A stretch of DNA of 38,889 bases from a virus. The DNA lies in IMG/VR virus record IMGVR_UViG_3300011116_000966, positions 1 through 38,889 of that record, one strand, 5' to 3'. The translations under genes and the position numbers were made by a program. Shown here piece after piece: positions 17,718 through 38,277 of the stretch. The notes under the pieces were generated by a model that ran no database searches, was not told the DNA's origin, and saw only the letters and a list, made by a program, of their open reading frames with translations. Within the stretch, counting starts at the first letter, position 1, and every line of letters starts with the position of its first letter.

Positions 17718-17725
17718 TATTTATC
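17718..17725 (-). promoter_or_regulatory. Late-promoter-like box GATAAATA
   Basis: GATAAATA on the minus strand, one base off consensus, 12 bases before the ATG of the 294-residue fibre protein, with AGAGAAA between. It overlaps the end of the long fibre gene, so it could give the distal gene its own late transcript. Confidence 0.4.
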
Positions 17726-20700: not shown

Positions 20701-20855
20701 GTTACTCCTTGTGATCCTGTAGCACCAGTTGCTCCTGTTACACCGCCACCTGCAGTACTCTGTTTATCCCATGCTGCACCATTCCACGACCATATTATGC
20801 CATTATATGCGTAGGTATTACCAGAACTAGGACTATTAGGAAAATTTATTGCCAT
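17724..20855 (-). CDS. Long tail fibre protein (1043 aa)
   Basis: A probable adhesin. The N-terminus (FPNSPSSGNTYAYNGIIWSW) is a small attachment domain seen in aquatic phage fibres. A short collagen-like stretch (GATGATGSQG..., about residues 42-75) follows. Residues about 80-330 look like a parallel beta-helix: a conserved opening TIIVHPGTYTES, then turns such as GLIGGNIVISGTISTNTGCT. The region from about 350 to 830 is made of repeated beta modules (SFNGLTGAVTGVT..., LSASGATFSG). The C-terminal domain from about residue 930 (KILAVHDGTSATSTQ, LRVTPGAT) resembles a cap domain shared by many aquatic phage fibres. A TATAAATA box abuts the start codon. Confidence 0.85.
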   Translation of the reverse strand: MAINFPNSPSSGNTYAYNGIIWSWNGAAWDKQSTAGGGVTGATGATGSQGVTGATGTNGTNGATGATGATGANFTGYDYEIHVSQVDGNDTTGNGDLLTPVASITKALTLVDSQRKTIIVHPGTYTESPSITVQYTTITGPGLIGGNIVISGTISTNTGCTISGIKMTNLTVTTPSGTGNVNILNCEVSGIFTKSSSADYTVLRLCDLTSASITGAGLVAIFGGNPNFITVNNASANVILKSAVTVSPVLTAGTLSIVDSVVAAAVTNAVTSAASSVITLANSQLLTSALNNVAPIVLNGFYSILNCVYNKPTSTLAALSATGGSYNSIDYFQYINADKFITQGGTSSQFVKGDGSLDSNVVISFNGLTGAVTGVTAGGANTFTGLNSFSAGISAAGGVTFSGAFSGTTGSFSKLLTASGGLSASGATFSGTISAAQFSGVLTSCTGLPVSTGITGFGSGIATFLATPTSANLKTALTDETGGGKVMFSTDPIVTESLSVTDPVGNIGALLKFSSNNALDSIYYGVNFGSIGTTSLSFIMDDFTDPTYRYMQIDADKIIKIGDVNGVCGGTNLSINNTTQTIAVTGRLTASGATFSGNISAPNIVNSWNGATGAVTFTNYVTSFNGKTGAVQGVSAAVAGTGISVSGATGSVTITNTGVQSFNGLTGAVTGVTVGGANIFTALNSFGAGISAAGGVTLSGSFSGTTGSFSKLLTASSGLSASGATFSGSISAPNIVNSWNGSTGAITFANYVASFNGLTGAVTGVTAGGANIFTALNSFGAGISAAGATFSDAVKASAGFFTDSVLPLVGGGNGKTLYINADQSGGGGSDSITHIGDTISAGNSTHITVDDNAGEVSIQGGAIHLYGAVDTQSTATIASTLTVLAGGAVLEYDGTLPVPTVFSVYNTSTPANTLTLNGLGIFSTLNTSGTLQYGAASGYADAFSITTATTGVTTIGSWTKTAYRSFEFDIQGSKGTTGPYQFTKILAVHDGTSATSTQLSNISTGATLGTYTVDISGTLLRLRVTPGATTSTVFKTLVKAIPV
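18489..19767 (-). repeat. Duplicated fibre modules within the long tail fibre gene
   Basis: Near-identical segments lie at about 19560-19767, 18670-18879 and, as a shorter copy, 18489-18601. Each encodes SFNGLTGAVTGVT, then GAN, then LNSF, AGISAAGG, SGTTGSFSKLLTAS and GLSASGATFSG. Long stretches match between copies, which allows unequal recombination to change fibre length. A related module starts the neighbouring gene. Confidence 0.85.
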
Positions 20856-20870: not shown

Positions 20871-21140
20871 TTAAATTTCAGCCCAAATTCCGATCCAAGT
20901 ATATAGTCTACCTGTATCAGTATTCCACCAACGATCTCCGTCTATTAAAGTGGCTACAGGACTAGTAGCGGATTCGTAGAATGCTCCAACAGCAGTAACA
21001 CTCACATCAACTTGTTTGCCTTTGCGAGTCACCACAATATTATCGCCAATAAAATTAATATCGTTTACTGATTTAATAATTCTGGCTCGGTCTTTATAGA
21101 TGCCAACCGCACCACCACCAGAACTAGCCATCATTCCCAT
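20871..21140 (-). CDS. Small fibre-associated protein
   Basis: An 89-residue protein between the collagen-like and long-fibre genes. A beta-rich centre (INFIGDNIVVTRKGKQVDVSV) precedes a terminal module GDRWWNTDTGRLYTWIG, a Trp-rich motif that often ends small fibre or baseplate proteins of aquatic phages. A similar module closes the 106-residue protein at 38274. The exact start is uncertain: ATGs at 21140, 21134 and 21131 are all in frame, and none has a clear ribosome binding site. Probable fibre hinge or cap. Confidence 0.65.
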   Translation of the reverse strand: MGMMASSGGGAVGIYKDRARIIKSVNDINFIGDNIVVTRKGKQVDVSVTAVGAFYESATSPVATLIDGDRWWNTDTGRLYTWIGIWAEI

Positions 21141-21162: not shown

Positions 21163-22119
21163 TCACTTTTGCTTTTTAATTAAACTGGATAAAAATTCTT
21201 GTATTTTCTTAGGATCAAAGGTTAATTCATTGTCCTCCAATATCAGAGGATACTGGGCAGTCAATACTGGAGATTCTCCAGTAGGACCTTGAGCACCTTC
21301 TGGACCAATCGGACCCTGATCTCCCTTTGCGCCCTGATCACCCTTCGGACCCGCTTTGCCCTGTGTTCCTTGGGCTCCACGAGGTCCAGATTTGCCTGTT
21401 TTGCCGTCTTTACCATCCTTGCCAGAGGCTCCAGGAAGCCCTTGGATGCCCTGTGAGCCGTCCTTGCCCTGAATGCCTGGAATACCCTGTTCTCCCTGTA
21501 CGCCCTGCTCGCCCCGAACACCCTGAATGCCTTGATCGCCCTTTTCTCCCTTTGGACCAGTAGGACCGTCTACTCCCTGTAGACCCTTGTCTCCTGGATA
21601 CCCAGTCCATCCAGTTTCTCCTCTATCTCCAGTAACTCCCTTGTCTCCCTTTTCGCCCTTCTCTCCAGCAACTCCTCGTAACCCCTGAATACCCTGAACG
21701 CCTTGTTCTCCACGAGGACCTCGTTCTCCTTGAGGACCAGCCCATCCGTCTTCTCCCTTTTCTCCCTTAGGTCCAGGAATACCAGTTTCTCGAACAACCT
21801 CTCGTTCTATTCTGGTTTGTGTTTCTGGATAAGCAATTTCTGGTTGAGGACGATATTGAAATAAATTTTGAAGATTATGGTGATTTCCTGTTATGGAAAT
21901 TATATTTCCATTTTTATCACGAAATTGACCTGAAGCTATTCCGACTCCGTGTCGATAAACCTTGTCTGGAATTTCGTTGTCGGTTAGTGTGAATTCAGAA
22001 CCTTGCAGATAATCGTTCCAAGATTCTGTTAAAACAAATTTAGAACCATACGAATATTGACCTTCCACATATCCTGGAATGGTCTCTTCAACATGAAAAT
22101 ATTTTTGGAAACGTTTCAT
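21163..22119 (-). CDS. Collagen-like fibre protein
   Basis: A 318-residue protein. Residues 1-112 form a polar N-terminal domain (ESWNDYLQGSEFTLTDNEIP, PDKVYRHGVGIASGQF). Residues 113-283 are 57 uninterrupted Gly-X-Y triplets rich in GEK, GDQ, GIQ and GPK, predicting a collagen-type triple helix about 50 nm long. A short C-terminal segment (LILEDNELTFDPKKIQEFL) probably nucleates the trimer. Phage collagen-like proteins are typically fibres or fibre linkers. Charged Lys/Glu/Asp pairs replace hydroxyproline as stabilising elements. The leader upstream is unusually long for this genome and contains a hairpin; no clear ribosome binding site is seen. Confidence 0.85.
   Translation of the reverse strand: MKRFQKYFHVEETIPGYVEGQYSYGSKFVLTESWNDYLQGSEFTLTDNEIPDKVYRHGVGIASGQFRDKNGNIISITGNHHNLQNLFQYRPQPEIAYPETQTRIEREVVRETGIPGPKGEKGEDGWAGPQGERGPRGEQGVQGIQGLRGVAGEKGEKGDKGVTGDRGETGWTGYPGDKGLQGVDGPTGPKGEKGDQGIQGVRGEQGVQGEQGIPGIQGKDGSQGIQGLPGASGKDGKDGKTGKSGPRGAQGTQGKAGPKGDQGAKGDQGPIGPEGAQGPTGESPVLTAQYPLILEDNELTFDPKKIQEFLSSLIKKQK
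21271..21783 (-). repeat. Collagen Gly-X-Y coding repeat (57 triplets)
   Basis: A 513-base stretch in which every third codon is Gly, with no interruption. The reading frames on both strands that this opens are by-products of the 9-base periodicity. Confidence 0.95.
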
Positions 22120-22241: not shown

Positions 22242-22661
22242 TCATCTGGTTGTTTCTCCAGTAACGTCTGCACGACCTTCTAGTAAACGATTGGTGTAAG
22301 TTGTTCCTATAATCAAATCCAGATCATACAGATGACGACCTACTGGAAAATAAGCAGTGCTAGAAGGACCTACTTTGATATAGATGCCTCCTGTCAGGGC
22401 AGTACCATCATAGTTGGTATTCAGACTAATGCCACCAATACCGCTAACACCGCCAGTGATTCCGCTGCCTCCAGTGAATCCCACAGTAACTCCATTAGTG
22501 GTGGCATACAGTATAGGATACGATGTTTCCTTGGCACGACGAATCTGTAGTGCTGCCGTATAGGAAGCCAGGTTTACTGGATTATCAGAAGAGTCCAAAT
22601 ACTGTACAAATATATTAAAATTTGCACCTTGATTGATTGATAAGTCGTATTTTGCGGTCAT
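22242..22661 (-). CDS. Virion structural protein, small beta-sandwich type
   Basis: A 139-residue protein that opens KYDLSINQGANFNIFVQYLD, then NPVNLASYTAALQIRRAKE, and ends YDLDLIIGTTYTNRLLEGRA followed by DVTGETTR. This pattern (QGA-F, VNL-Y-A--QIR, and a terminal beta hairpin with RLLEG) is shared by small structural proteins of many aquatic T4-like phages, probably baseplate- or fibre-associated. The middle has a Gly-rich insertion (GFTGGSGITGGVSGIGGISL). A CCTAAATA box ends 4 bases before the ATG, and the gene follows a glycosyltransferase gene. Confidence 0.7.
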   Translation of the reverse strand: MTAKYDLSINQGANFNIFVQYLDSSDNPVNLASYTAALQIRRAKETSYPILYATTNGVTVGFTGGSGITGGVSGIGGISLNTNYDGTALTGGIYIKVGPSSTAYFPVGRHLYDLDLIIGTTYTNRLLEGRADVTGETTR

Positions 22662-22675: not shown

Positions 22676-23914
22676 TTATCGATGTACGGTTTTTCTGCTT
22701 TTGAACTTCTTTTTTTGTGCTGGAAAAAGAGCAGGTTTATGATCCTTTTTTTGGCTCTGTTTTGCAGCCTGTTCATCCATTTGACGAATGGACTCCATTT
22801 GGTTGGTGTGTTCAAAGAATTTTAAATATTGTTGAAGATTGGTTTCAACTCGTTCCTTGTGTTCTGCTGGCAATCTGGATTCCGTCAAAAGCTTCTTACA
22901 GGCAGCGTATCCCATATGAGCCTTTCCTGCATAGAATGCCGTAGACGCAATTTCATCTAAAACACCATACTTGTACACATCTTCGCTAATAAACAAAATG
23001 TCATCCTTCGGGAAAGGAATATCTAAAGCCATTTTAGCGTACAAAAACGATAACCGTGGATGATTCATGAGTCGATAGACACGAGCAATTTGGTAGAGGG
23101 GTTCTGCACGTGTTGGACGAAGTTCCCAAGCCTCTAAGAATGCTTGTTGAATTTCTAACCAAGGTTTATTCGCAAGACCACGACACATACCAACACGGAA
23201 CTGAGAATAGTATTGTTCTTCTTCCCATCCACCCATTTCTACACGTTTAATATACGCCGCTTCCGCCTTTTCCCATTGTTGCGAATCAAAGTAACTTTGA
23301 GCCAGATAGAATTGGTATCGAAGATTGGTTGGCTCCTTTGCCAAAGCCTCTTCCAACATGACAGCATCTCGCTTATACTTTTCAATAGGATCAATACCTA
23401 CGTTACGAGCACCGACAGTACGAGCAACAATCTTATAGGTTCCTTCAAGCTTTGCAATGCGTGGCGGAGCATCTCCGTCCTTGGTAGGATACTCGTGAAG
23501 AATGCCTTGATACTTCCAGCCAATACCTGTACGAAAAATTTGTGTTCTCCACCAGCTAAATTCCCCACGACCAAACGCAAGAGCAAATCCTTCTGCGTCA
23601 CCTGCAGAGAACGGAAACTTAAAATCACCTTCAACATAGTCGTCAGCATCAATCATCCATGCCCAGTCTGCTTTGCCGTCACAGAGTTGCAGAGCTTCTG
23701 TGCGATTATCACCAAAGCTTACCCATGGGCGTTCATGAAGTTCTCCAGGAATACCCTTCTCTGCAAAATATGTTTTAATTAATTCTTGAGTTCCGTCAGT
23801 GGAACCAGTATCCACAATGACCCAGTAGTCTACGTACTTGTAGATGGAATCAAGGCATTCTTTGATAATGTGAGTTTCATTCTTAACAATCATTGATAAG
23901 CATATTTTAGGCAT
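22676..23914 (-). CDS. Family 2 glycosyltransferase with TPR-like C-terminal half
   Basis: A 412-residue protein. The GT-A fold starts with LSMIVKNETHIIKECLDSI, followed by VIVDTGSTDGTQE and the metal-binding DADD at 89-92 (WAWMIDADDYVEGDF). From about residue 185 come helical pairs such as NLRYQFYLAQSYFDSQQWEK and EPLYQIARVYRLMNHPRLSF, a TPR array likely to hold a protein acceptor. The end is Lys-rich. This architecture is typical of protein-modifying glycosyltransferases. It sits between the glycan cluster and the fibre genes, so fibre or virion glycosylation is a fair inference. GGAGAT precedes the ATG at 9 bases. Confidence 0.88.
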   Translation of the reverse strand: MPKICLSMIVKNETHIIKECLDSIYKYVDYWVIVDTGSTDGTQELIKTYFAEKGIPGELHERPWVSFGDNRTEALQLCDGKADWAWMIDADDYVEGDFKFPFSAGDAEGFALAFGRGEFSWWRTQIFRTGIGWKYQGILHEYPTKDGDAPPRIAKLEGTYKIVARTVGARNVGIDPIEKYKRDAVMLEEALAKEPTNLRYQFYLAQSYFDSQQWEKAEAAYIKRVEMGGWEEEQYYSQFRVGMCRGLANKPWLEIQQAFLEAWELRPTRAEPLYQIARVYRLMNHPRLSFLYAKMALDIPFPKDDILFISEDVYKYGVLDEIASTAFYAGKAHMGYAACKKLLTESRLPAEHKERVETNLQQYLKFFEHTNQMESIRQMDEQAAKQSQKKDHKPALFPAQKKKFKSRKTVHR

Positions 23915-23950
23915 AATTTAAATCTCCATGGTTATATATGTGACATTTCA

Positions 23951-24376
23951 TTATTTTTTAATCCAATCTAACGGATAATCTGTGCATACACCAAATACGT
24001 TTGGTATTTTAATTTTAGAACCCAATTCAACAGTAATTCCGTATTCCATATAATTTCCAGGATATCCCCAAGGAACTCCTTTACTGGTAATGGTAAATTT
24101 ATCTGTTTCGTGCCAGAAACAATGAACATCATTTTTCAACAGAACATCTAGGGCTTCTGTGTTTTTTGCGTGACACCATAATCTGTAATTTGATAAAAAT
24201 TTTATATCGGTTTCGTATTGAGGTTCATCATGACCCAAATACCATTTGTGGTCTACCAGCCATACATCTACTTCAACATCAAATCCTTCTGATATTGCGG
24301 TGTCAATATATGCTGGTTTATTTTCGTCTGGAGTCTTTCCCAACAAATTGCCTCGATGTGATATAATCTTAATCAT
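23951..24376 (-). CDS. Short glycerophosphodiester phosphodiesterase-like protein
   Basis: A 141-residue protein with the start and end signatures of the GDPD/PI-PLC-like barrel: ISHRGN at the N-terminus (His7, Arg8), DVEVDVWLVD with the metal-binding Glu/Asp, a second His in WYLGHDEP, and a terminal FGVCTDYPLDWI that matches the usual TDxP close. GDPDs are normally about 240 residues, so the middle of the barrel is shortened. This may be a minimal version that acts on a glycerol-phosphate or sugar-phosphate group, or a binding-only relative. The following glycosyltransferase stop overlaps its start (TAATG). Confidence 0.7.
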   Translation of the reverse strand: MIKIISHRGNLLGKTPDENKPAYIDTAISEGFDVEVDVWLVDHKWYLGHDEPQYETDIKFLSNYRLWCHAKNTEALDVLLKNDVHCFWHETDKFTITSKGVPWGYPGNYMEYGITVELGSKIKIPNVFGVCTDYPLDWIKK

Positions 24377-25062
24377 TATTTTTGAATTCTCATAGTGCTG
24401 TAAACTCTAGATGGATTTGGGTCTGATGCTGGATCTGGAATTGTTATTTCTTTATCCCTCAATAGTCGTACCACAGAAAATGGATTAAATGTATAATTCC
24501 ACTTATCTTTACAACGCATAGCCCACTCAACATCTTCTCCTTGTCCCCAGACTCGTCGAACATCTAACGGGTTTTCTAACATAAATTTTCTTTTAGCACA
24601 CCAATAGGTTCCGCCAACATACATGTTAGTTTTGGTTTGCGACAAGTCATCATATGAAATAAATTCTATTGGTCTCTTCAGAGTAATCCAATCCCAATAC
24701 CGAGAGCCTTTTGATGTACGAATAGGATTCGAGCAAACATCCCAATCATTTTCAAAATTTAAATAACCATTATACCAGTTCTCACACAACCCAACATAGT
24801 CATGCATAATACAAACATTTTCAAAATTTGCATTCTGAACTGCTAGATTTTTCTTCATAGTAATCCAACCAGGAACTAATGTTTCGTTGAATATAATATT
24901 ATTATTAATTAGTGGTTTAACTTTATGTAGAGCTTCGTTATCTGGTCCAATTAATATTATTTCAAACTTATCCTTGGTTAGATTATTTTGATTCCTAATA
25001 GAATTAATAATCTGTTCCAGATAGATTCCATCCAAATACGATATAACGAAAGACCATTTCAT
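24376..25062 (-). CDS. Family 2-type glycosyltransferase
   Basis: A 228-residue GT-A protein. The first strand is WSFVISYLDGIYLEQIINSI, then FEIILIGPDNE, and NVCIMHDYVGLCENWYNGYL in the position of the nucleotide-sugar and metal site, where HDY replaces the common DxD. A GQGEDVEWAMRCKD segment matches the C-terminal ED motif often seen in family 2 enzymes, the probable catalytic base. Donor and acceptor unknown. Start overlaps the previous stop by four bases (ATGA). Confidence 0.82.
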   Translation of the reverse strand: MKWSFVISYLDGIYLEQIINSIRNQNNLTKDKFEIILIGPDNEALHKVKPLINNNIIFNETLVPGWITMKKNLAVQNANFENVCIMHDYVGLCENWYNGYLNFENDWDVCSNPIRTSKGSRYWDWITLKRPIEFISYDDLSQTKTNMYVGGTYWCAKRKFMLENPLDVRRVWGQGEDVEWAMRCKDKWNYTFNPFSVVRLLRDKEITIPDPASDPNPSRVYSTMRIQK

Positions 25063-25838
25063 GGATATATTTGTCTAATAATCTCGTCTATGTTTATTGA
25101 CTTTTCGTCCTGAAAAACTTCATCCAAAGAATACTCTGCAATTTCTCTAATTTTAGATATTTCAGGTGTTTCGGTATGAAGATTGTTTGACACAGAAGAG
25201 CCGTGGACTCTGTGATAGAATGTAGAATTATGATCTCTATTACCCTTTAATTTATGACAAAACAAATAATGCAAACCTTCATATATTGGAGCAGACCGAT
25301 CCAGATATTCCATAATACCACTTTCTAAAAACTTGTCTTTAGAAACAATAGTGGAATGAGAAAACGCATACGATGGTCCTTTTCTTATTGTGGTTTCATT
25401 TAAAAATCCTCTACTATTTGTAATAGTAAGAATTTTATTATTTTCATCCACAACCTGAACATTACTCCAACTTAAATCTAATCCTTCCATATTCATCATA
25501 TTTAATTGACTGTCTACTTTGTTTGAAGACCAAAGATCATCATAGTGGCAAAATGAAACAAATTTTGAATCTACCTTCTGCCATTCAGTAATGATCTTTT
25601 TCCATATAGAACCTTTTCGGAAAAATGAATACGGATCATGCCAACTAATAGAACAGCCAGTAGAATTTAATAAATCTTTAACTTCTTGGGATACATTATC
25701 ATCACAGGCAAACACGATCTCATACTTGCGGCTGGTTTCTTGCTTTTGAAGAGATTCTATACACCATTGCAAAAATTGAATAACGGGAGTTCCTGGAGTG
25801 GAAATCCCTAAAGGAACAACTATAGTTAAATCATTCAT
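25059..25838 (-). CDS. Family 2-type glycosyltransferase
   Basis: A 259-residue protein from the ATG at 25836-25838, chosen because it overlaps the preceding stop (ATGA). An ATG six codons further upstream would overlap more. The GT-A core shows LTIVVPLGISTPGTPVIQFL, then YEIVFACDDN and VSFCHYDDLWSS, where the YDD triplet is at the usual DxD position. His/Asp residues near RDHNSTFYHRVHGSSVSN may form the acceptor side. One of three adjacent, distantly similar family 2 genes. Specificity unknown. Confidence 0.8.
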   Translation of the reverse strand: MNDLTIVVPLGISTPGTPVIQFLQWCIESLQKQETSRKYEIVFACDDNVSQEVKDLLNSTGCSISWHDPYSFFRKGSIWKKIITEWQKVDSKFVSFCHYDDLWSSNKVDSQLNMMNMEGLDLSWSNVQVVDENNKILTITNSRGFLNETTIRKGPSYAFSHSTIVSKDKFLESGIMEYLDRSAPIYEGLHYLFCHKLKGNRDHNSTFYHRVHGSSVSNNLHTETPEISKIREIAEYSLDEVFQDEKSINIDEIIRQIYP

Positions 25839-26593
25839 CGAAATACTTCTTTCCAATTATTTCCATATTTTTCACTCATAACAGGATTCATTTCTAAGTA
25901 AGCTTCTCGGTCTAGGTTATTATAAGTTTCGTCTCCCATTTGCTTTTTGTATGTGTATTGACCGTGATGATCTATAACTACACCATCATACATGTAAATT
26001 TCTTTTCCTAGACGATGCAGATTAGTATAAAAATCTTTACCAGCACCATAACAACGAGTTAATCTTGGATCTTGACCACCAACACTATTCCAATCATCTT
26101 TACGAACAAGAATAGGGGATGTGTCGTCCATATTAATCACATTAGCATGATTAGGCATTACTCTTCTGAATAATTCTTTATTATTTGGATTATATACAGT
26201 AAATCGATCACCAATGTATACAGGAGTTGCGTCTTGATTTAGTGCTGGGTGGATTACTGCAATTTGAGGATTTGCTTCCATATGCATCACCATGTCATAT
26301 AAAATGTCTGGCGATTCTCGGAATGTCATATCGTTGTGCATATAGAAAACATACTTTACGTCAGGTTTTCGATTAAAATAATGTGCTCCAAGCAATATGG
26401 CTCCCATTGTTCTGGTATTGACAATACTTTTGATTGTTGTATACTTAGAGGGAGGAGCTTTGTCTGAAGCATTATCTACCACACAAATTTCGTAATTAGT
26501 TTTAGTTAAATTCTTTACTAAATTTTCATAAACAAAATCAGTCTCATTTGGTAAATTATAATTTAAAAGTGCAATTCCAGTTTTTGGCATCAT
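25835..26593 (-). CDS. Family 2 glycosyltransferase
   Basis: A 252-residue protein. TGIALLNYNLPNETDFVYEN and YEICVVDNASDKAPPS are the usual first two nucleotide-binding strands. YVFYMHNDMTF holds the HND variant of the DxD metal site, and RKDDWNSVGGQDPRL plus YDGVVIDHHGQYTY are acceptor-side elements of the rhamnosyltransferase-like branch of family 2. Start from tandem ATGs at 26588-26593. A GATAAATA sequence 21 bases upstream lies in the end of the cupin gene and may be fortuitous. Confidence 0.87.
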   Translation of the reverse strand: MMPKTGIALLNYNLPNETDFVYENLVKNLTKTNYEICVVDNASDKAPPSKYTTIKSIVNTRTMGAILLGAHYFNRKPDVKYVFYMHNDMTFRESPDILYDMVMHMEANPQIAVIHPALNQDATPVYIGDRFTVYNPNNKELFRRVMPNHANVINMDDTSPILVRKDDWNSVGGQDPRLTRCYGAGKDFYTNLHRLGKEIYMYDGVVIDHHGQYTYKKQMGDETYNNLDREAYLEMNPVMSEKYGNNWKEVFR

Positions 26594-26604
26594 AAAAAAT
26601 TCTC

Positions 26605-26916
26605 TCAGTTAATATATTTATCTCCGACTACAGATGGTGTCTTAATAACAAGTATACACGCATCTTCCAAACAGTCAAATTGATTCTCTAAATTTGGTTC
26701 AATTATTATAATATCTCCAGAAGAAAATGTTTTATTTTGCATTTTTACTTCTCCAGAAATTACAACGGTATATTCTGTGGCTATTTTATGATAATGATTT
26801 TCATCTTTATCACCCTTTTTATAATACTTAACACCAATCTCTATATCTTTATTATTAAATAAACATGGAGAAAAATCACCAACCAACCAACCTTTAGTAA
26901 AATCTTTAATATTCAT
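26605..26916 (-). CDS. Small cupin-fold protein
   Basis: A 103-residue single-domain cupin. Motif 1 is IEIGVKYYKKGDKDENHYHK then EYTVVISGEVKM, with the paired His and Glu metal ligands. Motif 2 is SSGDIIIIEPNLENQFDCLE. In sugar clusters small cupins are often sugar isomerases/epimerases or sensors; substrate cannot be read from the sequence. The ATG overlaps the nucleotidyltransferase stop (ATGA), so the two are coupled. Confidence 0.85.
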   Translation of the reverse strand: MNIKDFTKGWLVGDFSPCLFNNKDIEIGVKYYKKGDKDENHYHKIATEYTVVISGEVKMQNKTFSSGDIIIIEPNLENQFDCLEDACILVIKTPSVVGDKYIN

Positions 26917-27626
26917 TTTTGTTTAAGGTAGGTATTAAGGTCTTCGGGAGTACCAATTCCGTGCATCTTGTCTACATAAAAGGGAATAAGCATTTTCCTA
27001 TCAGCAACATATTCATTGTATACAGGAGCAATATAAAACTCATTGTTTACTCTAATATTTTTATCGATCATTTGTTCTGCATATTTAACAAACTCTGATC
27101 CCTTTTTATACCAATAAATACCGCAAGTTGCAATATTTGAGATTGGATTCTTTTCTTGTAGTTCCGTAATAATACCACGAGAATTAACTCTAACAAAAGA
27201 CCATTTAGGATGAACGGCATTAAATGTAAATACGATACCTTCGGCTGGGGTTAATGATTTTAGTAATTTAAAATTCTCTATAGAATATTCTAATACCTGA
27301 TCAGAATTAGCAATTAACAATTCTTCGTCGTCGTTTATTAAATGTTTAGCTAATAGTGCAGTACAGGCTGCACCTTCAGTTAAACCATCTACTTCCACAA
27401 TCTGAAATTTGCCGTTAGTGATTCGGTCTAATGTAGTTCTGAGACCACTATATTTTTCTAAATGTTCTTTACGAACCAAGAAAATATATGTGGCATCAAA
27501 ATCTAAATTTTCCACAACAACCTGAATCATCGGTTTGCCGTCAACATCAATTAAAGGCTTAGGAAAAGTGTAGCCCTCTTTGGCAAATCTGCTTCCTTCC
27601 CCAGCCATGGGAATCAATATTTTCAT
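26913..27626 (-). CDS. Sugar-1-phosphate nucleotidyltransferase
   Basis: A 237-residue enzyme that activates a sugar-1-phosphate with an NTP. The signature ILIPMAGEGSRFAKEGYTFP then KPLIDVDGKPMI is the nucleotide-binding loop of the NTP-transferase family. LLIANSDQVLEY carries the Mg-binding Asp, and NNEFYIAPVYNEYVADRK matches the sugar-phosphate side. No C-terminal acyl- or hexapeptide-repeat domain is present. I chose the ATG at 27624-27626, one base after the FkbM stop; an earlier ATG would add 13 hydrophobic residues overlapping that gene. It shows that the phage makes its own activated sugar. Confidence 0.88.
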   Translation of the reverse strand: MKILIPMAGEGSRFAKEGYTFPKPLIDVDGKPMIQVVVENLDFDATYIFLVRKEHLEKYSGLRTTLDRITNGKFQIVEVDGLTEGAACTALLAKHLINDDEELLIANSDQVLEYSIENFKLLKSLTPAEGIVFTFNAVHPKWSFVRVNSRGIITELQEKNPISNIATCGIYWYKKGSEFVKYAEQMIDKNIRVNNEFYIAPVYNEYVADRKMLIPFYVDKMHGIGTPEDLNTYLKQK

Positions 27627-27627
27627 T

Positions 27628-28188
27628 TTAAGCCTTTTTAAAACTATTATGTACGTAAACATCATCTTGGCGATTTACGCAACCAAGCAATTTATAATCA
27701 TATTTTTCCATATGAGATCTACTTACATCAACTCTTCGTTGACCACCCTCTCGATACTCATCAGTTTCAAATGTTATAACATTGAATTTATACTTATCGA
27801 AAGGAATCTTCATCAAGCATTCCAGAGTCAAATCAGGCGGTTCCAAATCTAAAGACAAATAATCAATAGTTTCTGGCATATTATTTTCTTCGAACAACTT
27901 GGCATAATCAATAGCCAAAGCATCAGCCAAGACATGCTTGGTTTGTGGTCTGTGAGATTTCCAAGTTTCTCCTCCATCTCCCACATAATCTTGAATATCA
28001 ACTCCAATACCAGTCCAATTGAATGTTGCTTCAAAAAGAAAAGTATTACTTATGCTTAGTGGTTCAGAACAACCAATATCAACAAAGGTGCCATTGTATT
28101 TTGGACCCAAAATGTCTAATACGATTTTGTCCTGTCCAATCTGTGCTTTAAAATTTAAATGTGAAATATACGAATCTAGGTTTTGCAT
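27628..28188 (-). CDS. FkbM-type SAM-dependent methyltransferase
   Basis: A 186-residue protein. SQIGQD-type opening (AQIGQDKIVLDIL), motif I GTFVDIGCSEPLSISNT and the acidic end of strand 2 in GIGVDIQDYV are the SAM-binding elements. TIDYLSLDLEPPDLTLECL and FNVITFETDEYREGG are characteristic of the FkbM branch, which usually O-methylates sugars. Expected to methylate a glycan residue made by this cluster. Its ATG overlaps the HAD stop (TAATG). Confidence 0.87.
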   Translation of the reverse strand: MQNLDSYISHLNFKAQIGQDKIVLDILGPKYNGTFVDIGCSEPLSISNTFLFEATFNWTGIGVDIQDYVGDGGETWKSHRPQTKHVLADALAIDYAKLFEENNMPETIDYLSLDLEPPDLTLECLMKIPFDKYKFNVITFETDEYREGGQRRVDVSRSHMEKYDYKLLGCVNRQDDVYVHNSFKKA

Positions 28189-28799
28189 TATATTGAATCC
28201 TTTAAAAAAGTAACTAGTGTATGTAGATTGACTTTGCTAGAGTCTTCAACGATTAGTAAATGTTTAGCTGCGGAAGCTTTGGCAGCTTTGATTCCTTTTT
28301 CAGAATCTTCGACACATAATACCTCAGAACCAATTGCATCTAATTTATCTATTGCTAAATTATAACAATCTGGGTAAGGCTTATTTCTTGATACATCTTC
28401 ATTTGTTATGAGTATGTCCATAAATTCTAATTGACCTGTTTTGGATAACATCTCTTCTGCAGTTTTGCGAATAGAATTAGTAACACAGCCAATTCGAATA
28501 TTATTAGATTTTAAATATTTGTGTAATTCTATTTTCTCTGACATTATTTTTGCAGTTTTCCTAATCACATCCAAGGTAAAGTCTTGTTTTGCCGCATTAA
28601 TTTTCTTTGCCTGATCTTCTGCAATACCAAGCATACCTAATTTTACATGAGTAGGAAGACCGTTATATGTGGACATGTGGTCTTCTTTATTGATTGGGGA
28701 ATGCCCAAACGAAGAAAGAGCATGATTTAAGGAATGATAATGCCAATCACATGCATCTACCAATACTCCATCAAGATCAAATAATATAGTATTAATCAC
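28188..28799 (-). CDS. HAD-family phosphatase or phosphoglucomutase-like enzyme
   Basis: A 203-residue HAD hydrolase with all four motifs: motif I FDLDGVLVDA (nucleophile Asp), motif II CVTNSIR, Lys of motif III in NKPYPDCY, and motif IV CVEDSEKGIKAA. A helical cap lies between motifs I and II, as in beta-phosphoglucomutase relatives. In this cluster it probably processes a sugar phosphate ahead of the nucleotidyltransferase two genes downstream. The start is GTG (28797-28799), overlapping the previous stop (GTGA). Confidence 0.88.
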   Translation of the reverse strand: MINTILFDLDGVLVDACDWHYHSLNHALSSFGHSPINKEDHMSTYNGLPTHVKLGMLGIAEDQAKKINAAKQDFTLDVIRKTAKIMSEKIELHKYLKSNNIRIGCVTNSIRKTAEEMLSKTGQLEFMDILITNEDVSRNKPYPDCYNLAIDKLDAIGSEVLCVEDSEKGIKAAKASAAKHLLIVEDSSKVNLHTLVTFLKDSI

Positions 28800-29620
28800 A
28801 GAGTACCTCTAAATCCATCATTCATAGACAACCAAAGATATAAGGCTTCTTTAGAAACATCTGCAGGAATCGCATTCATCAATTGCTGCATCCAACCTGC
28901 TCCATATTTTTTATTAAATCCTTCGTGCATATTCACTCTTGCTAATTGAATAAACTGACTGCCGTCCATAGTTTGCTTTGTTTTTTCTTTGTTCTTGTAT
29001 GATGTAAACGGATCATGAAAAATGCCAATCTTATCTGTTATATATGTCCTGTATCCAGCATTGTGTAATTGGTATGGCATATCATAATCAAGACCCCATC
29101 CATAAAAGAATATGTTATCTAAAAAATTATCTCCACAAGCATCCCATGCCTTTGCGGAAATCATGGGACAGATAATTTCTGAAAAACTTTCTTTTCTTGT
29201 TTCTGAATCTGTCATTTTACCTAATCGTTTATGTGGTGCATAGATGTTAGATTGGTATGGACTAATTTGACCACAATCAGGCAAAGATGCCATTTCGTTG
29301 TATAGTATAGTTACTAGATCTTTATCGTCTATGAATTTAGCATCATTCACAAACAACATATAGGCATCATACTTTTCACCAGTTTTATATTTAAGAACAG
29401 AGTCTGCATACGATTTTAATAAATTAAAACCTCTGGTCATTCTGCAACCGTCAGATACCCACAATGTAGCATACTTGGAACAATTGTTTATCTGTGAACC
29501 AGTCTCAATTACGTGCAGATCATAATCAACACCTTTGGTTCGTTGAATAATGGATTCACATAAAGAATCGGTTAATTCTGGATAATTATGACTCACAACT
29601 AATACGCATACTCTACTCAT
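28796..29620 (-). CDS. Glycosyltransferase, GT-A fold
   Basis: A 274-residue protein from the ATG at 29618-29620, preceded by GGAGAATAAT, two bases after the previous stop. VCVLVVSHNYPELTDSLCES and YDLHVIETGSQINNC form the nucleotide-binding half. DAYMLFVNDAKFIDD holds a VND triplet in place of DxD, and FYGWGLDYDMPYQLHNAGY is the acceptor-side segment with Asp-x-Asp. Family 2-like; donor unknown. A longer in-frame ATG at 29641 is less likely because it would overlap the upstream gene without a ribosome site. Confidence 0.8.
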   Translation of the reverse strand: MSRVCVLVVSHNYPELTDSLCESIIQRTKGVDYDLHVIETGSQINNCSKYATLWVSDGCRMTRGFNLLKSYADSVLKYKTGEKYDAYMLFVNDAKFIDDKDLVTILYNEMASLPDCGQISPYQSNIYAPHKRLGKMTDSETRKESFSEIICPMISAKAWDACGDNFLDNIFFYGWGLDYDMPYQLHNAGYRTYITDKIGIFHDPFTSYKNKEKTKQTMDGSQFIQLARVNMHEGFNKKYGAGWMQQLMNAIPADVSKEALYLWLSMNDGFRGTL

Positions 29621-29621
29621 A

Positions 29622-30305
29622 TTATTCTCCGTAAATACCAATACAGTATGCTTTTTCTGGTTGTAAAAGATCTGAATCTTTGTTTTGCATTTGTTTATCG
29701 TGCATACGATTACAAATTAAAGGTTCCTCGATGATCATTGGAAGATTATATTTTGTGTATAACCTCTTGTACATTTCACAATCAATTAATAGTGATAATT
29801 TTTCATCAAAATATTCTTTAGTTTTCATCGTTAATACGCTTGGTGAACTAATAGTATTAGCCCCATGATGAATTTTATGTTGATAATAAGGTATCATTTT
29901 TTGATAAAGAAAATGAATTGATTGGCAATGAACACATCCACTAACCAACCAAGTCTTGTCTGTATTTTCATAGAACTTTTTTACAATCTTGGTAAGAGCA
30001 TTATTGTCTATAAAAAAATCATCAGCACACATTGGTTTTATTAGATCGCCAGTACAATGCTTGATTGCATTATTAAGATTAGATCCTATTTTTCTGGTTA
30101 AATGTGTAGAATCTACGTATAGTATATTCATGTGTTTTGAATACATTTCTACTAAATTCTTGGTTATATCATCAGTACTCTGATCACTTATTACTACTTC
30201 GTAATCTGAATAATCTTGTTTCTTGATACTATTCAATAATTCTGAAATGAATAACCAACCCATTCCGTGGCATTCGTATGTTGGAACCGCAATAGAGATT
30301 TTCAT
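29622..30305 (-). CDS. Family 2 glycosyltransferase
   Basis: A 227-residue protein with a classical family 2 opening: ISIAVPTYECHGMGWLFISE, then DYEVVISDQSTDDITKN, and LIKPMCADDFFIDNNALTKI with the ADD metal-binding triplet. It is short for the family, with a C-terminal region LPMIIEEPLICNRMHDKQMQ in the place of the acceptor loop. The ATG directly abuts the stop of the C-methyltransferase gene. Confidence 0.86.
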   Translation of the reverse strand: MKISIAVPTYECHGMGWLFISELLNSIKKQDYSDYEVVISDQSTDDITKNLVEMYSKHMNILYVDSTHLTRKIGSNLNNAIKHCTGDLIKPMCADDFFIDNNALTKIVKKFYENTDKTWLVSGCVHCQSIHFLYQKMIPYYQHKIHHGANTISSPSVLTMKTKEYFDEKLSLLIDCEMYKRLYTKYNLPMIIEEPLICNRMHDKQMQNKDSDLLQPEKAYCIGIYGE

Positions 30306-31529
30306 TTATTGGAAATTCTCGCTCTGAAGATCTTTGATACTAATGAATCTAATTCCAGAATCAATCAACTCTTTGTTGTTTCGTTTGATTTCTTCTGCAA
30401 AATTCCAAGCCATAATCACAATAACATCTGGTTTATCTTCCTTTATTTTATCTTTTGGAAAAATAGGAATCTTTACACCAGGCAAAATTTTATTATGCTT
30501 TAGTTTATTGTCTTCAACAATATAATCAATATAGTTTGTGCCAACTCCAAAATAGTTTAATGCTGTTGTTGCCTTTGCTGGAGATCCGTAACCAATAATC
30601 TTTAATCCCTTTTCCTTTAACGCATGAAGATTGATATTGATATTTTTCTTTATAGTTTTAATATTTTCAAAGAATTGATTATATACTTCACCATTCAGTA
30701 TACCAAAATTCTTTTCTTCCGTTAAGAACTTATCAACGCTAGCATCTACGTTTGAATTTTGTCGTTTTACGTATACTCTAATAGATCCACCATGGGTGTC
30801 GATGTGTTGTGCCTTTACAACAGAATAACCAAAACTATTAAAGAAATTACTGAGAGAAGTTACCGACCAATAACTAACATGTTCGTGGTATATGTTATCA
30901 AAAGTAACATCTTTAATAGTGTCCAATAGATACTGAACTTCAATGATAAAGCAACCATCGTCCTTGAGCATACTGAATACATTTCTGGTAATCTCTTTAA
31001 CTACATCTGAATGTGCAAAAACATTAGATGCGGTAACTAGATCTACCTTCCCAAACTTGTTAATAATTTTTTCAGCAGTATCTGTATCAAAATAAGAATT
31101 GATGGTTTCAATACCATTATCGTTGGCAAGTTTGGCAAGATTTACTGCAGGGTCTACTCCAACTACCTTTACATTTGCTTCTTTAAATCCGACCAATCCA
31201 ACACCATCATTGCTGCCAATATCAACAACAACTGAATCTGAATTCAGATTAAATTCTTTAATATACGTTTCTGCTGCATTTCTAAAATGATCCCTAAATG
31301 TCTTGGTTGTAGAAGACACATACAAATAAGTATCAAATAGTTGTTCTGGAGGAATCACATACGAAAGCTGAGAATTATGACACTTATCGCAATACACTAC
31401 ATCCAATGGATATAGATTATCAGTATCATTAATATCGTTTAATAGATTGTTTGCTAAAGGGGAAAGACCTAAAGAAACTATAGATTTTAGATTAATATTA
31501 CCACAACTTCTGCAATCACTTTTTAACAT
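30306..31529 (-). CDS. Sugar C-methyltransferase (zinc-binding, TylC3/NovU type)
   Basis: A 407-residue protein in three parts. The N-terminal zinc module has CRSCGN and YCDKCHNSQLS. The central SAM-binding domain has VVVDIGSNDGVGLVGFKEA, then VVGVDPAVN, with TASNVFAHSDV after it. The C-terminal domain has GLKIIGYGSPAKATTALNYF. This is the architecture of enzymes that C-methylate NDP-keto-sugars. The IYHEHVSYW segment carries the His residues used as general base in that family. I prefer the ATG at 31527-31529, one base after the SDR stop; an ATG at 31556 would overlap the upstream gene. It implies a branched or methylated deoxysugar. Confidence 0.88.
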   Translation of the reverse strand: MLKSDCRSCGNINLKSIVSLGLSPLANNLLNDINDTDNLYPLDVVYCDKCHNSQLSYVIPPEQLFDTYLYVSSTTKTFRDHFRNAAETYIKEFNLNSDSVVVDIGSNDGVGLVGFKEANVKVVGVDPAVNLAKLANDNGIETINSYFDTDTAEKIINKFGKVDLVTASNVFAHSDVVKEITRNVFSMLKDDGCFIIEVQYLLDTIKDVTFDNIYHEHVSYWSVTSLSNFFNSFGYSVVKAQHIDTHGGSIRVYVKRQNSNVDASVDKFLTEEKNFGILNGEVYNQFFENIKTIKKNININLHALKEKGLKIIGYGSPAKATTALNYFGVGTNYIDYIVEDNKLKHNKILPGVKIPIFPKDKIKEDKPDVIVIMAWNFAEEIKRNNKELIDSGIRFISIKDLQSENFQ

Positions 31530-31530
31530 T

Positions 31531-32430
31531 TTATTCTCTGCTTTCTCTTTTGACATTACTGATTATATTATCAGCATTATTTATTATGTCGTTGTAAATG
31601 GTTTCTACAGTGTCTTGAAATTTAAAGTTATAATCCTTTTCAAATAAAGAATTATCACAATTAAAACTATAATTTGTTGGAAAAGAATCATTCACGACTA
31701 ACTCACATTTACTCAAATTCTGAATTGTTTCTGCAAATTGGATAATCTTTGAATTGATTGATGTGATATTGTATACTTTGTTTTTGATATTGTCGCTATT
31801 CAAGATATTAGAAAATACCCTGCACAAATCATTCATGCCAAGAACTGACCTAAATTTATCAGGATTAGAAACAGTGATCTTTTTGGTTCTAAGCGAAGAT
31901 AATGATAATGAATTTAATAGATTTTCTCCTCTGAAGTTTTTAGAAAATCCACCAAGAGAACCAAACCGTAGCCCAATTACATTCTTGTTTGGGTATAGGT
32001 TTATAATATTTTCATTACAAATTTTGGTATAGTCGTAATAATTTATACCACTGGCTAATGGATACGTCTCGTCAACTAAGTTATTATTGTTGCCGTATAC
32101 TGCAGCAGTGCTACTATACAATAGTGTCTGATCGTCATTAAGTTTTTCTATAAGTTTAATAAAATTTACAACATTATTTTGAAAGCAAGGAATTAAAGAA
32201 TGGCTGCACATGGAAACAGAAGAATGTGCTGCTAACAAAATAATATGAGAAAATTTATTGATAAATTCTTTAGATAAATTATTATAATTCTCTTCGTGAG
32301 TATTCTTGTGGATTTTTCCAAACCAACAAAGATCTACATTAGTTACATCATAATTCAAATCACATAAATGGTCGTATAATCTACTACCAATATAACCGTT
32401 ACCACCCAATAATAAAACTTGCTTATTCAT
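31531..32430 (-). CDS. NAD-dependent sugar epimerase/dehydratase (extended SDR)
   Basis: A 299-residue protein. The Rossmann motif GGNGYIG (about residues 9-15) follows KQVLLL. ILLAAHSSVSMC and LYSSTAAVYGN lead to the active-site YxxxK in YYDYTK, and VIGLRFGSLGG follows. These are standard for extended SDRs acting on nucleotide sugars. The start is the ATG at 32428-32430 with AAGAG upstream; the longer frame would need TTG. It would act on the sugar activated by the nucleotidyltransferase, possibly before C-methylation. Confidence 0.9.
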   Translation of the reverse strand: MNKQVLLLGGNGYIGSRLYDHLCDLNYDVTNVDLCWFGKIHKNTHEENYNNLSKEFINKFSHIILLAAHSSVSMCSHSLIPCFQNNVVNFIKLIEKLNDDQTLLYSSTAAVYGNNNNLVDETYPLASGINYYDYTKICNENIINLYPNKNVIGLRFGSLGGFSKNFRGENLLNSLSLSSLRTKKITVSNPDKFRSVLGMNDLCRVFSNILNSDNIKNKVYNITSINSKIIQFAETIQNLSKCELVVNDSFPTNYSFNCDNSLFEKDYNFKFQDTVETIYNDIINNADNIISNVKRESRE

Positions 32431-32462
32431 AAAAAATTCACTCTTATTATCTATACGACAAT

Positions 32463-33239
32463 TCAATCTTTAAATTTTATATTACCAACCATGGTTATAG
32501 TTTCTTCTTTTTTATCATGAATTTCGCTTGTCTTAGCATATTCACTTAATTCTATTTGGAGTTCTTTCGTGGTTAGGAATGCATTCATTCCTCCAAAAAT
32601 AGCAAGACCGATTGGTGGTTTTTGTGTACACCTAAGAATATGATTATCCGCTGGAAACAAAAAACCAAATTGTTCGATTGGTGCTATTAATTTCTTGGCT
32701 CCTGCTTTAGTTAAGATATAACCAGCAGTTCCTTCACAAATTTCCCAAAAGGATGCTTGTGTAGTAGCCAATATTTCGATTTTATTAGTTAGGTGTTCAA
32801 ATGCTCGTTTACCTGTAACAAAGTTTGGTGAATTTCTTTGGCAAAATATCAAATCTATTCCATCAAGATTTTGAGTTTTTGTAAATTCTGTTAATTGCTC
32901 TCCAGTGAATAACAATTTAGCATCATCTTCTAGAATCAAAGTAGCATCGTATTCGCTTTCTGCCAATTCTTTCCATAAAGAATAATGACTGAATAGACAA
33001 CCGATCTCACCAATATTTACCCATTTTCTACCATTAAAAGAATCTCCGTAATTATTATCCGTATTAACAGAAATATTATGCCATTTATAACTAAAGGTTA
33101 AATCGTTTCTTGTAATGCTAAATTTATCTGCTGCATCAAAAAACGAAAAAGAAACATCTTTGGATTCAAGATGCTTCTGTATTGTAGGTCTTCGTGATGA
33201 TTTAATTCTACTTATTACTCTGGTTTCTAGTGTGAACAT
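32463..33239 (-). CDS. Family 25 glycosyltransferase (LPS type)
   Basis: A 258-residue protein. SFFDAADKF near residue 35, then the hallmark GEIGCLFSHYSLWKELAE and ATLILEDDAKLLF with EDD metal ligands, are the conserved core of family 25, which includes LPS galactosyltransferases. GLAIFGGMNAFLTTKE closes the catalytic domain. The start overlaps the end of the upstream gene by 13 bases. LPS-type enzymes in a phage may modify host surface sugar or build a virion glycan. Confidence 0.85.
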   Translation of the reverse strand: MFTLETRVISRIKSSRRPTIQKHLESKDVSFSFFDAADKFSITRNDLTFSYKWHNISVNTDNNYGDSFNGRKWVNIGEIGCLFSHYSLWKELAESEYDATLILEDDAKLLFTGEQLTEFTKTQNLDGIDLIFCQRNSPNFVTGKRAFEHLTNKIEILATTQASFWEICEGTAGYILTKAGAKKLIAPIEQFGFLFPADNHILRCTQKPPIGLAIFGGMNAFLTTKELQIELSEYAKTSEIHDKKEETITMVGNIKFKD

Positions 33240-34093
33240 TGGATTCTTTCAAACAATACATCATCTGCCATTTGCATCCCTTTAACTTTAAGAAAATTAT
33301 TCTCAACACTTGGTTTCATTTTTTCGTAAAGTTCTGGGGTTAATGATTCCATGATTTCTTGTTCTTTCCCAGACTCTAACATAATTATACCATCAGATTC
33401 GAAGAAGTCAAGTAATTTCTTGGATCCCCAGTAAATTGGTATAGTTCCTGTAGCAAAACAATCTGTAACCTTTTCCGTCCAGTATGAATCGTACACTCCA
33501 TTCTCCATAATAATACTAAACATATAGTCTTTTAAACCATCAATTTTAGTATTCCATGGATTACGAGGATCCGTTACTGTTCTTTGGGTTCCGTGAACTC
33601 CACCAAACACACTAATGTTAGCATCCAGTGCCAGTCTTGCTATTTGATGCCTGTGAACATGTCCTTCTGTCATTAATTTGGGAGAACAAAACATTGAACA
33701 TAATTTAGTTTTATTATATACTTCCCATTTCTCTTTAGGCACCCAAGGATAATTGCTTCCGTTAGGACAATAAACAAATCGTTCATCTAGATTTAATAAT
33801 TCTTGATCACAGGTGAATATGTTAGTATAATATTCTTCAAACATCTCTTTATGTTTGTGCGTCAAAAATGTATATACATTAGGGACGATATACTTGGATT
33901 CGCATACCCACCCAAAACGTTTTTCTTTTGGAGTACTATCTGGTTGCATTAATAGACATTCGTCTATATGCACAACCCAATCGCCTGCTGTAGTAACCCA
34001 ATCAAAATCTTTTGGTTTTATATTAGAGCAAGATGAGTATTGTGGGTCAAACGGTAATCCAATTCCTCTTACTTTGTTCCTGGACTCTGCCAT
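33227..34093 (-). CDS. Family 10-like (fucosyltransferase/exostosin-type) glycosyltransferase
   Basis: A 288-residue GT-B-like protein. The C-terminal donor-binding region YWTEKVTDCFATGTIPIYWG, followed by SKKLLDFF, matches the family 10 / exostosin pattern (TEK, then GTxPxYxG). NISVFGGVHGT precedes a short stretch comparable with the acceptor-side helix. The N-terminal half is reduced relative to cellular fucosyltransferases. Overlaps the upstream gene by 25 bases, with no alternative start downstream. Donor could be a GDP-sugar, but this is not shown. Confidence 0.8.
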   Translation of the reverse strand: MAESRNKVRGIGLPFDPQYSSCSNIKPKDFDWVTTAGDWVVHIDECLLMQPDSTPKEKRFGWVCESKYIVPNVYTFLTHKHKEMFEEYYTNIFTCDQELLNLDERFVYCPNGSNYPWVPKEKWEVYNKTKLCSMFCSPKLMTEGHVHRHQIARLALDANISVFGGVHGTQRTVTDPRNPWNTKIDGLKDYMFSIIMENGVYDSYWTEKVTDCFATGTIPIYWGSKKLLDFFESDGIIMLESGKEQEIMESLTPELYEKMKPSVENNFLKVKGMQMADDVLFERIQCSH

Positions 34094-34707
34094 GCAATTG
34101 CTTCCTCATTAATACCTAATTCACGCAAAGATTGTTTTTTAGATTCCACATCAGCTAATCCCATAACAATAACAGAATTAGCTGCTTCTTCTCCAGGCCA
34201 AACGCAATATTCAGGACCAACAAACTTCATTCTAAATCCTTCTTGAGTATAGAACTTATTAATGATTCCTAATAGGGCTTCATGATCAAACCATTTACCA
34301 GTTTCTTCAAAATTTCTAGCAACATGTATCCAGTGTTGTAAAAACTCTAACACTTTACTGTTAAACGCCAAATATATTGGTGATGCTTTTGCTGCATATA
34401 ATTTAGGTAAAGAACAAGAAAACGCAAGATCAGTATTGTCTTGAAACAAATCAAATACATTTAATGATTGTCTTACGTCAGAATCTACATCCAACCACAA
34501 AATTGGTTGTTGTTTTTGTACTAACATATAATAGATGAATTGTGGTTTACTTAAACAATTCTTTTGGTAAGATCCTAGTGATTTCTTTTCACGAATATCC
34601 GACTTTAAACCTAAACGATCTAATTGGTTTTTTAATCGTTTTGCGTGATCACTGTAATATGTCGATCCATCTAAATCACTATAAAAACTAATCACTTCAG
34701 TTTGCAT
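34069..34707 (-). CDS. GT-A nucleotide-diphospho-sugar transferase
   Basis: A 212-residue protein from the ATG at 34705-34707, two bases after the RegA stop. FISFYSD-like opening (EVISFYSDLDGSTYYSDHA), CLSKPQFIYYMLVQKQQPIL and WLDVDSDVR, with DVDSD as the metal site, fit the family 77-like or glycosyltransferase-DxD type. The C-terminal GPEYCVWPGEEAANSVIV is its acceptor side. It is the first gene of the glycan cluster after RegA, so it may also be read from the clamp operon. Confidence 0.75.
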   Translation of the reverse strand: MQTEVISFYSDLDGSTYYSDHAKRLKNQLDRLGLKSDIREKKSLGSYQKNCLSKPQFIYYMLVQKQQPILWLDVDSDVRQSLNVFDLFQDNTDLAFSCSLPKLYAAKASPIYLAFNSKVLEFLQHWIHVARNFEETGKWFDHEALLGIINKFYTQEGFRMKFVGPEYCVWPGEEAANSVIVMGLADVESKKQSLRELGINEEAIAWQSPGTK

Positions 34708-34709
34708 AA

Positions 34710-35120
34710 TTAAGAATTTCCTATATGGTATTTCGGAACCAGAACCCAATCTTTCTTTTCTTTATGTGGAATGATTTTTAGCTGAGCAAGAGAAAGTTGA
34801 GGTTCTTTGTATTCCTCAGGATCTACTGCCGTTACTAAACCCCATTCCACTAAAAGTTTAACTATAACATTTCTACGACCAATATCAGAATCTGATATGT
34901 CTGTTTCCAGACCATCCAAATCCAATAATTCTTTAAAGTGCATAATAGCATACCTGCCACGCTTATGCAGAATATGGCAACTTTGAAATAATTTCTTTTC
35001 TTTTTTAGACGAGACTCCCATGCGAGTTAGAGTTTCTCGAACCTTAAGAAAATCGTCTTTGCTTTTGAGTGTAATTTCTACACCTAGCCCATCAAATATA
35101 TCATTATCATCAGTTTCCAT
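34710..35120 (-). CDS. regA: RegA translational repressor
   Basis: A 136-residue protein; T4 RegA has 122. From residue 14 it runs parallel to T4 RegA: VEITLKSKDDFLKVRETLTR, then MGV, FQSCHILHKRGRYAIMHFKE, RRNVIVKLLVEWGLV and the terminal VLVPKYHIGN. It carries an extra acidic N-terminus of about 13 residues (METDDNDIFDGLG). RegA binds the initiation region of early phage mRNAs, including its own and those of clamp and clamp-loader genes, and represses their translation. Position after gp45-44-62 is the same as in T4. A TATAAATA box at 35165 may give an additional late transcript. Confidence 0.94.
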   Translation of the reverse strand: METDDNDIFDGLGVEITLKSKDDFLKVRETLTRMGVSSKKEKKLFQSCHILHKRGRYAIMHFKELLDLDGLETDISDSDIGRRNVIVKLLVEWGLVTAVDPEEYKEPQLSLAQLKIIPHKEKKDWVLVPKYHIGNS

Positions 35121-38249: not shown

Positions 38250-38277
38250 ATTATATCACGTAAAAAACAAAAGTCAA
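38250..38277 (-). promoter_or_regulatory. Sigma70-type promoter of the rnh-45-44-62 operon
   Basis: On the minus strand TTGACT (38272-38277), a 16-base spacer and a perfect TATAAT (38250-38255), ending 6 bases before the rnh ATG. It has the same design as the promoter at 16424. A start about 7 bases after the -10 box would fall at the start codon, so this transcript too may have almost no leader. Confidence 0.75.

Follow-up and report, generated by a model that had tools for sequence, protein, structure and literature searches.

The DNA analysed here, a stretch of 38,889 bases that is called the window below, is taken from an IMG/VR record of an uncultured virus (IMGVR_UViG_3300011116_000966). 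Two blocks of T4-like core genes lie on its minus strand, one with gp45, gp44, gp62 and regA (37212-34710) and the other with gp43, uvsX, gp41, gp61, ThyX and NrdA (15902-6911). Between regA and a group of fibre genes is an island of 16 co-directional minus-strand open reading frames (ORFs; 22676-34749) rich in glycosyltransferases (GTs). Comparison with relatives reveals that this regA-to-fibre slot is a polymorphic glycan locus: it is framed by a GT77-like/GT10-like pair on the regA side and by a GT2 enzyme with TPR repeats (GT2-TPR) on the fibre side, and its interior is replaced whole or as cassettes. The genes of the locus and its borders are the following.

34710..35120, minus: regA, upstream boundary of the locus, adjoining it in relatives (Pfam Translat_reg, 2.5e-40)
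34069..34749, minus: frame GT 1, GT77-like, GT-A fold with a DVD motif; no Pfam or PHROG family, assigned from a fold model; the probable start is an internal ATG
33227..34093, minus: frame GT 2, GT10-like, with a fucosyltransferase C-terminal domain (PF00852, 2.8e-7; alpha-1,3-fucosyltransferase 2nzw, 2e-5)
32463..33239, minus: GT25 glycosyltransferase (PF01755, 8.7e-24; top PDB match procollagen galactosyltransferase 1, 8e-11)
31531..32466, minus: SDR nucleotide-sugar oxidoreductase, proposed C4 dehydrogenase, gene 1 of a swappable cassette (PF01370, 2e-16; 6vo6, 3e-11; GGNGYIG and YDYTK motifs)
30306..31556, minus: sugar C-methyltransferase, gene 2 of the swappable cassette (PF08484, 4e-49; D-mycarose 3-C-methyltransferase 4rv9, 3e-75)
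29622..30305, minus: GT2 glycosyltransferase (PF00535, 1e-16)
28796..29641, minus: DUF707/GT2-like GT (PF05212, 5e-6)
28188..28799, minus: HAD phosphatase or beta-phosphoglucomutase-like protein (PF13419, 1.2e-32; TIGR02009, 6e-26, below its cut-off; DLDGVL motif)
27628..28188, minus: FkbM-like methyltransferase, proposed O-methylation (PF05050, 0.0017, weak)
26913..27665, minus: sugar-1-phosphate nucleotidyltransferase (PF00483, 5e-9; 4evw, 8e-17; GEGSRF...PKP motif)
26605..26916, minus: small cupin, perhaps an isomerase or epimerase (PF07883, 9e-5, below its cut-off; phrog_24762, 2e-37)
25835..26593, minus: GT2-like glycosyltransferase (PF00535, 5.6e-5, at the cut-off)
25059..25856, minus: GT2-like glycosyltransferase (PF00535, 0.003, weak)
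24376..25062, minus: GT2-like glycosyltransferase of predicted GT-A fold; no family match (Foldseek 1.3e-9 to GT-A enzymes, with a model of predicted local distance difference test, pLDDT, 71.5)
23951..24376, minus: GDPD-like short protein (phrog_34507, 8e-29; HRG, EVDV and HD motifs)
22676..23914, minus: frame GT 3, GT2-TPR, fibre-side boundary, with a phage-like GC content of 0.42 (PF00535, 1.5e-11, plus TPR)
22242..22661, minus: tail-fibre assembly-like protein beside frame GT 3 (phrog_3304, 5e-7)
21163..22119, minus: collagen-like fibre protein with a run of 57 Gly-X-Y repeats, the candidate acceptor (PF01391, 4e-30)
17724..20855, minus: large fibre protein with a short collagen-like stretch (PF01391, 0.008; phrog_4577 tail protein, 0.0009)

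Sixteen co-directional genes with overlapping ends had been described at 22676-34707 in an earlier sequence-only reading. Indeed, with regA included as the last neighbour, overlaps of 1-40 bp are found at 13 of 16 junctions, and intergenic distances range from -40 to +36 bp. If translation really begins at internal ATGs, several of the longer overlaps are reduced to about 4 bp. The end of the island given in that reading cuts off the start of the last gene and should be 34749. That reading counted about nine GTs, and nine are recovered, seven by family matches and two (at 34069 and 24376) by predicted fold. Among its accessory assignments, the nucleotidyltransferase, HAD, SDR, C-methyltransferase and cupin stand, the FkbM match is weak, and the GDPD-like gene is recognised by its motifs and its PHROG only; a role of the cupin as a conserved sugar isomerase found no support beyond the cupin match. 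GC content is 0.30-0.34 over 24-35 kb and 0.36-0.48 elsewhere in the window, so that the A+T richness claimed for the island is real for 15 of the 16 genes and fails for GT2-TPR. It is not peculiar to the island either: low GC is rejected as proof of foreign origin because other stretches of a near-complete related genome, G001 (153,850 bases), are equally AT-rich, down to about 0.29-0.33. Scans for promoters and terminators gave no more hits than expected by chance, and a search of 50,697 phage records found no DNA similar to the whole island.

The locus was compared among uncultured T4-like contigs retrieved by gp44, in two samples: 50 unselected loci whose contigs extend at least 2.6 kb beyond regA, and 28 non-duplicate framed contigs in which GT2-TPR is present by selection and the GT77-like/GT10-like pair is not. 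The pair lies directly after regA in 43 of the 50 unselected loci. In the framed contigs, where the locus spans 9.7-18 kb, only the pair, GT2-TPR and RegA are recurrent; no other family is found in more than 10 of the 28, and 106 of the 482 genes are unique. The interior has a lower GC content than the flanks in all 28, and its identifiable cargo is overwhelmingly sugar-making or sugar-adding. Frame GT 1 is found in nearly all relatives and has no match in the 50,697 phage records. GT2-TPR was found in 36 of the 55 related records that were searched, among which are many fragments, and usually ends the locus on the fibre side where contigs extend far enough. Furthermore, the identity of two of the frame GTs tracks that of RegA (Spearman 0.64 and 0.75), while the value is only 0.30 for the GT10-like frame GT and 0.25 for sharing of the interior. 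The GT pair is missing after regA at loci L031, L033, L036, L055, L056 and L071 (gp44 62-66% identical), and the L033 contig retains GT2-TPR; some lines may have lost the frame or had it replaced.

Exchange of the interior is evident between close relatives. In comparison with G001, the window has gp44, gp45, gp43, uvsX, gp41 and gp61 at 97-99% identity and NrdA at 97%, frame GTs at 71-84% and main fibre genes at 33-73%; the G001 interior is unrelated to that of the window except for one C-methyltransferase (59%) at a different place. Loci L146, L147 and L150 have 100% identical RegA and 0-8% of interior families in common, against 96-99% identity in replication genes. A smaller exchange is seen in L148 and L149, where the window interior is retained at 94-99% identity with one extra gene each, and the SDR and C-methyltransferase are replaced by a dTDP-glucose 4,6-dehydratase-like gene (1e-52) and a C-methyltransferase allele at 34%. 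With this same interior, the fibre-side gene of L148 is 55% identical, and L149 has the same fibres. The separate acquisition proposed in the sequence-only reading thus applies to the interior, which is traded as cassettes at a fixed site; the regA-side GT pair and GT2-TPR are lineage genes. On sequence comparison, the donors of the interior look like a pool common to aquatic phages rather than a single bacterial O-antigen locus.

Some interiors of relatives harbor unexpected genes. A RuBisCO large-subunit-like protein (PF00016, 1e-35) is encoded within the glycan interior of contig G022 (L235:8282-9472); its top PDB match is named ribulose bisphosphate carboxylase (4e-38), and others are RuBisCO-like enolases. 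In another interior (L251:4373-5731), a phosphoribulokinase/uridine-kinase domain is fused to a class II aldolase domain, possibly for sugar-phosphate supply.

Gene families and intact motifs lend good support to the construction of a methylated sugar from sugar phosphate and its stepwise transfer, both also suggested earlier. In the C-methyltransferase, similarity to D-mycarose 3-C-methyltransferase covers the full length and all three domains, and the zinc cysteines and the YHEH active-site motif are kept; the motifs of the nucleotidyltransferase and HAD protein are intact. C-methyltransferases of the TylC3/TcaB9 family require a 4-keto sugar. The SDR adjoins the C-methyltransferase, and its nearest, though distant, PDB entry is 6vo6, which we take to be Cj1427 of Campylobacter. 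The latter enzyme dehydrogenates GDP-heptose at C4 (PMC10680097). In the pathway proposed here, the nucleotidyltransferase would activate a sugar 1-phosphate, with the HAD protein trimming or supplying phosphate; the SDR would oxidise C4, and the resulting 4-keto group would enable the C-methyltransferase to act at C3. The FkbM-like enzyme may O-methylate the sugar, and the soluble GTs would attach sugars sequentially in the cytoplasm. The dehydratase-like gene of L148 and L149 would be an alternative 4-keto maker. Homologues of the nucleotidyltransferase are found in Synechococcus phages (52-55% identical), and the C-methyltransferase is found in eight GenBank phage records versus 62 IMG/VR loci.

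As for the acceptor, membrane proteins were compared by a simple hydropathy count of proteins of at least 100 aa, the bacterial loci including flanking genes. None of 480 proteins of the 28 islands has four or more transmembrane segments; the islands thus lack genes for a flippase, polymerase or ligase, which disfavours a self-contained O-antigen or capsule pathway. In contrast, bacterial loci that carry the same C-methyltransferase have 176 proteins out of 1077 with at least four such segments, distributed over 57 of 60 loci. The lack of multi-spanning proteins therefore indicates that there is no lipid-linked export machinery and that the product would be made on a cytoplasmic acceptor: a virion protein, an LPS (lipopolysaccharide) core precursor or DNA. 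The island GTs are soluble and have no membrane anchors. In 18 of the 28 contigs, the 3 kb that follow GT2-TPR contain collagen-like Gly-X-Y runs; none was found before regA (48 kb examined), within the islands (386 kb) or upstream of gp44 (250 kb). Frame GT 1 has, in a model of pLDDT 87.6, a GT-A fold whose top PDB match is the capsid GT A64R of chlorovirus PBCV-1 (2p6w, Z 15.7); its profile matched nothing among PDB sequences up to E 0.1, and the assignment is by fold only.

We give about an even chance to the reading that the polymorphic locus serves to glycosylate the virion from within the cytoplasm, the island being one of its alleles. Of the virion proteins, the collagen-like fibre, whose gene lies immediately downstream, would be the likeliest target. 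The linkage or core would come from the three conserved frame GTs, and the outer sugars, which differ between strains, from the swappable interior. The outcome would be a phage "glycotype" that alters surface properties such as adsorption, stability and escape from binders with the protein scaffold unchanged. A fuller version is more tentative and, though possible, carries less of our confidence: a serotype-like locus in which constant core GTs flank an exchangeable block adding strain-specific, often C- or O-methylated sugars to the collagen-like tail fibre, giving one phage species many glycotypes.

Several points weigh against virion glycosylation on the fibre. One of the 50 unselected loci has one GT of the pair and six have neither; interior and fibre can recombine separately; and the acceptor is one that we infer. 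GT6 chains tie with A64R within 1 Z in the fold search of frame GT 1, and likeness of a modelled fold alone does not indicate the acceptor of this enzyme. GT25 is an LPS family too, despite its match to procollagen galactosyltransferase 1, and as a marker of collagen fibres it proved inconsistent: L238 has GT25 and no collagen-like run in the 3.7 kb after GT2-TPR. A candidate lysyl hydroxylase of the 2OG-Fe oxygenase family PF13640, the only family searched, is present in one of four relatives and was not found in three; with the window genome incomplete, animal-type collagen glycosylation is only tentatively judged unlikely from this.

Among the targets listed by the sequence-only reading (fibres, capsid, phage DNA and host LPS), the fibre is favoured as the probable one and modification of host LPS is conceivable, while phage DNA and a self-contained O-antigen pathway are disfavoured. 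The GTs might act on the cytoplasmic face of the infected cell, altering its LPS at the level of the core or of lipid-linked precursors and thereby blocking superinfection, with alleles following host glycan variation. Such a role, which we regard as somewhat unlikely, would suit the GT25, GT2 and C-methyltransferase families, all usual in LPS loci. The bacterial C-methyltransferase homologues in the scan are mostly from SAR11 (51-55%), in membrane-protein-rich loci; one island GT weakly matches a GtrB-like PHROG; and O-chain modification has been proposed for pelagimyophage GTs (Zaragoza-Solas et al., PMC7029224). It is opposed by the missing flippase, polymerase, ligase and other multi-spanning proteins, by the conserved linkage to collagen-like fibres and by cyanophage S-ShM2, whose regA-gp43 gap has no annotated GT. 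The glycan may otherwise be carried by a capsid, tail or baseplate protein. The acceptor in PBCV-1 is a capsid protein, and separate exchange of fibre and interior would fit; however, the locus is physically linked to fibres, not capsid, and no structural head genes are recognised in the window, which makes this quite unlikely.

A loose insertion hot spot whose cargo consists mostly of passengers with no joint product would account for the many singletons and for cargo such as the RuBisCO-like protein and the phosphoribulokinase-aldolase fusion. It is very unlikely, given that recognisable cargo is overwhelmingly sugar-related, that the window genes are co-directional and overlapping with intact catalytic motifs, and that enzymes working in pairs are exchanged together. 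Glycosylation of phage DNA, like that of T4 on hydroxymethylcytosine, is barely plausible. The T4-like background, the many soluble GTs and a weak DUF1599 nucleotide-modification-like gene beside gp43 speak for it; however, the window carries ThyX, and PF00303 (thymidylate-synthase/dCMP-hydroxymethylase) was not found in four relatives (two of about 155 kb, one of 142 kb and one 40 kb fragment; the window genome is incomplete). To our knowledge, nine GTs with sugar C-methylation exceed any known DNA pathway.

The closest cultured DNA polymerases are those of cyanomyoviruses, at 47% identity only, and an ordinary cyanophage is unlikely because psbA was not found in 11 long related records. A phage tRNA-Arg is about 79-82% identical to SAR11 tRNAs (147 SAR11-order genomes), a value uninformative on the host. 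The fibre genes, including the collagen-like one, sit within the replication module between regA and gp43 (window 22661-16821), an odd site for a T4-like phage. Two big plus-strand ORFs (778-2166 and 4779-6914; 462 and 711 aa) matched nothing in Pfam or PHROGs. A short WW-containing C-terminal segment is common to small proteins at 38274-38594, beside the clamp genes, and at 20871-21140, among the fibres; a relative of the former matches the latter with 40% identity over 35 aa.

There are similar loci in other systems. The host recognition cluster of pelagimyophages is a hypervariable region with tail fibres and many GTs between VrlC and gp14 (PMC7029224), also in T4-like aquatic phages. The present locus differs in lying between regA and gp43 in the replication module, not in the VrlC-gp14 structural module, and in having constant framing GTs and whole-interior replacement at identical RegA, where the pelagimyophage cluster shows gradual divergence (PMC7029224). 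Cyanomyoviruses S-SM2, S-SCSM2R, S-8S53 and DSL-LC02 have clusters with co-directional epimerases, nucleotidyltransferase, HAD, FkbM and GT10/GT25, but these are near hli/psbA, tRNAs or baseplate genes, and none has the GT77-like frame gene. Conserved ends and an exchangeable, low-GC, sugar-specific interior are likewise features of bacterial O-antigen and capsule loci and of SAR11 hypervariable region 2 (HVR2); the phage loci are unlike the O-antigen and capsule loci in encoding none of their multi-spanning proteins. With Cj1427 and TylC3/TcaB9 the locus probably has a common logic, a 4-keto nucleoside diphosphate sugar followed by a change at C3, the phage SDR being only distantly similar (3e-11). 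In PBCV-1, soluble viral GTs assemble the glycan in the cytoplasm, the conserved core is built by a GT common to all members, and mutation of A64R alters the capsid glycan (PMC5408694, PMC7826918). Soluble virus GTs, a member-wide GT plus variable ones, and methylated sugars (predicted in the phage) are thus common to both, and A64R is the top fold match of frame GT 1; PBCV-1 differs in being a eukaryotic virus with an N-linked capsid glycan, whose genes are not known in one framed exchangeable locus, and the phage acceptor is a proposed one. For glycosylated phage virions, nothing nearer than the chloroviruses was found in the papers searched.

Sugar clusters of phages are commonly labelled as host LPS modifiers without test, and this locus offers a specific, testable alternative, in which phages would vary their own virion glycan much like bacteria vary their O-antigen. 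If this is true, virus-encoded stepwise glycosylation with a conserved core would extend beyond the eukaryotic giant viruses.

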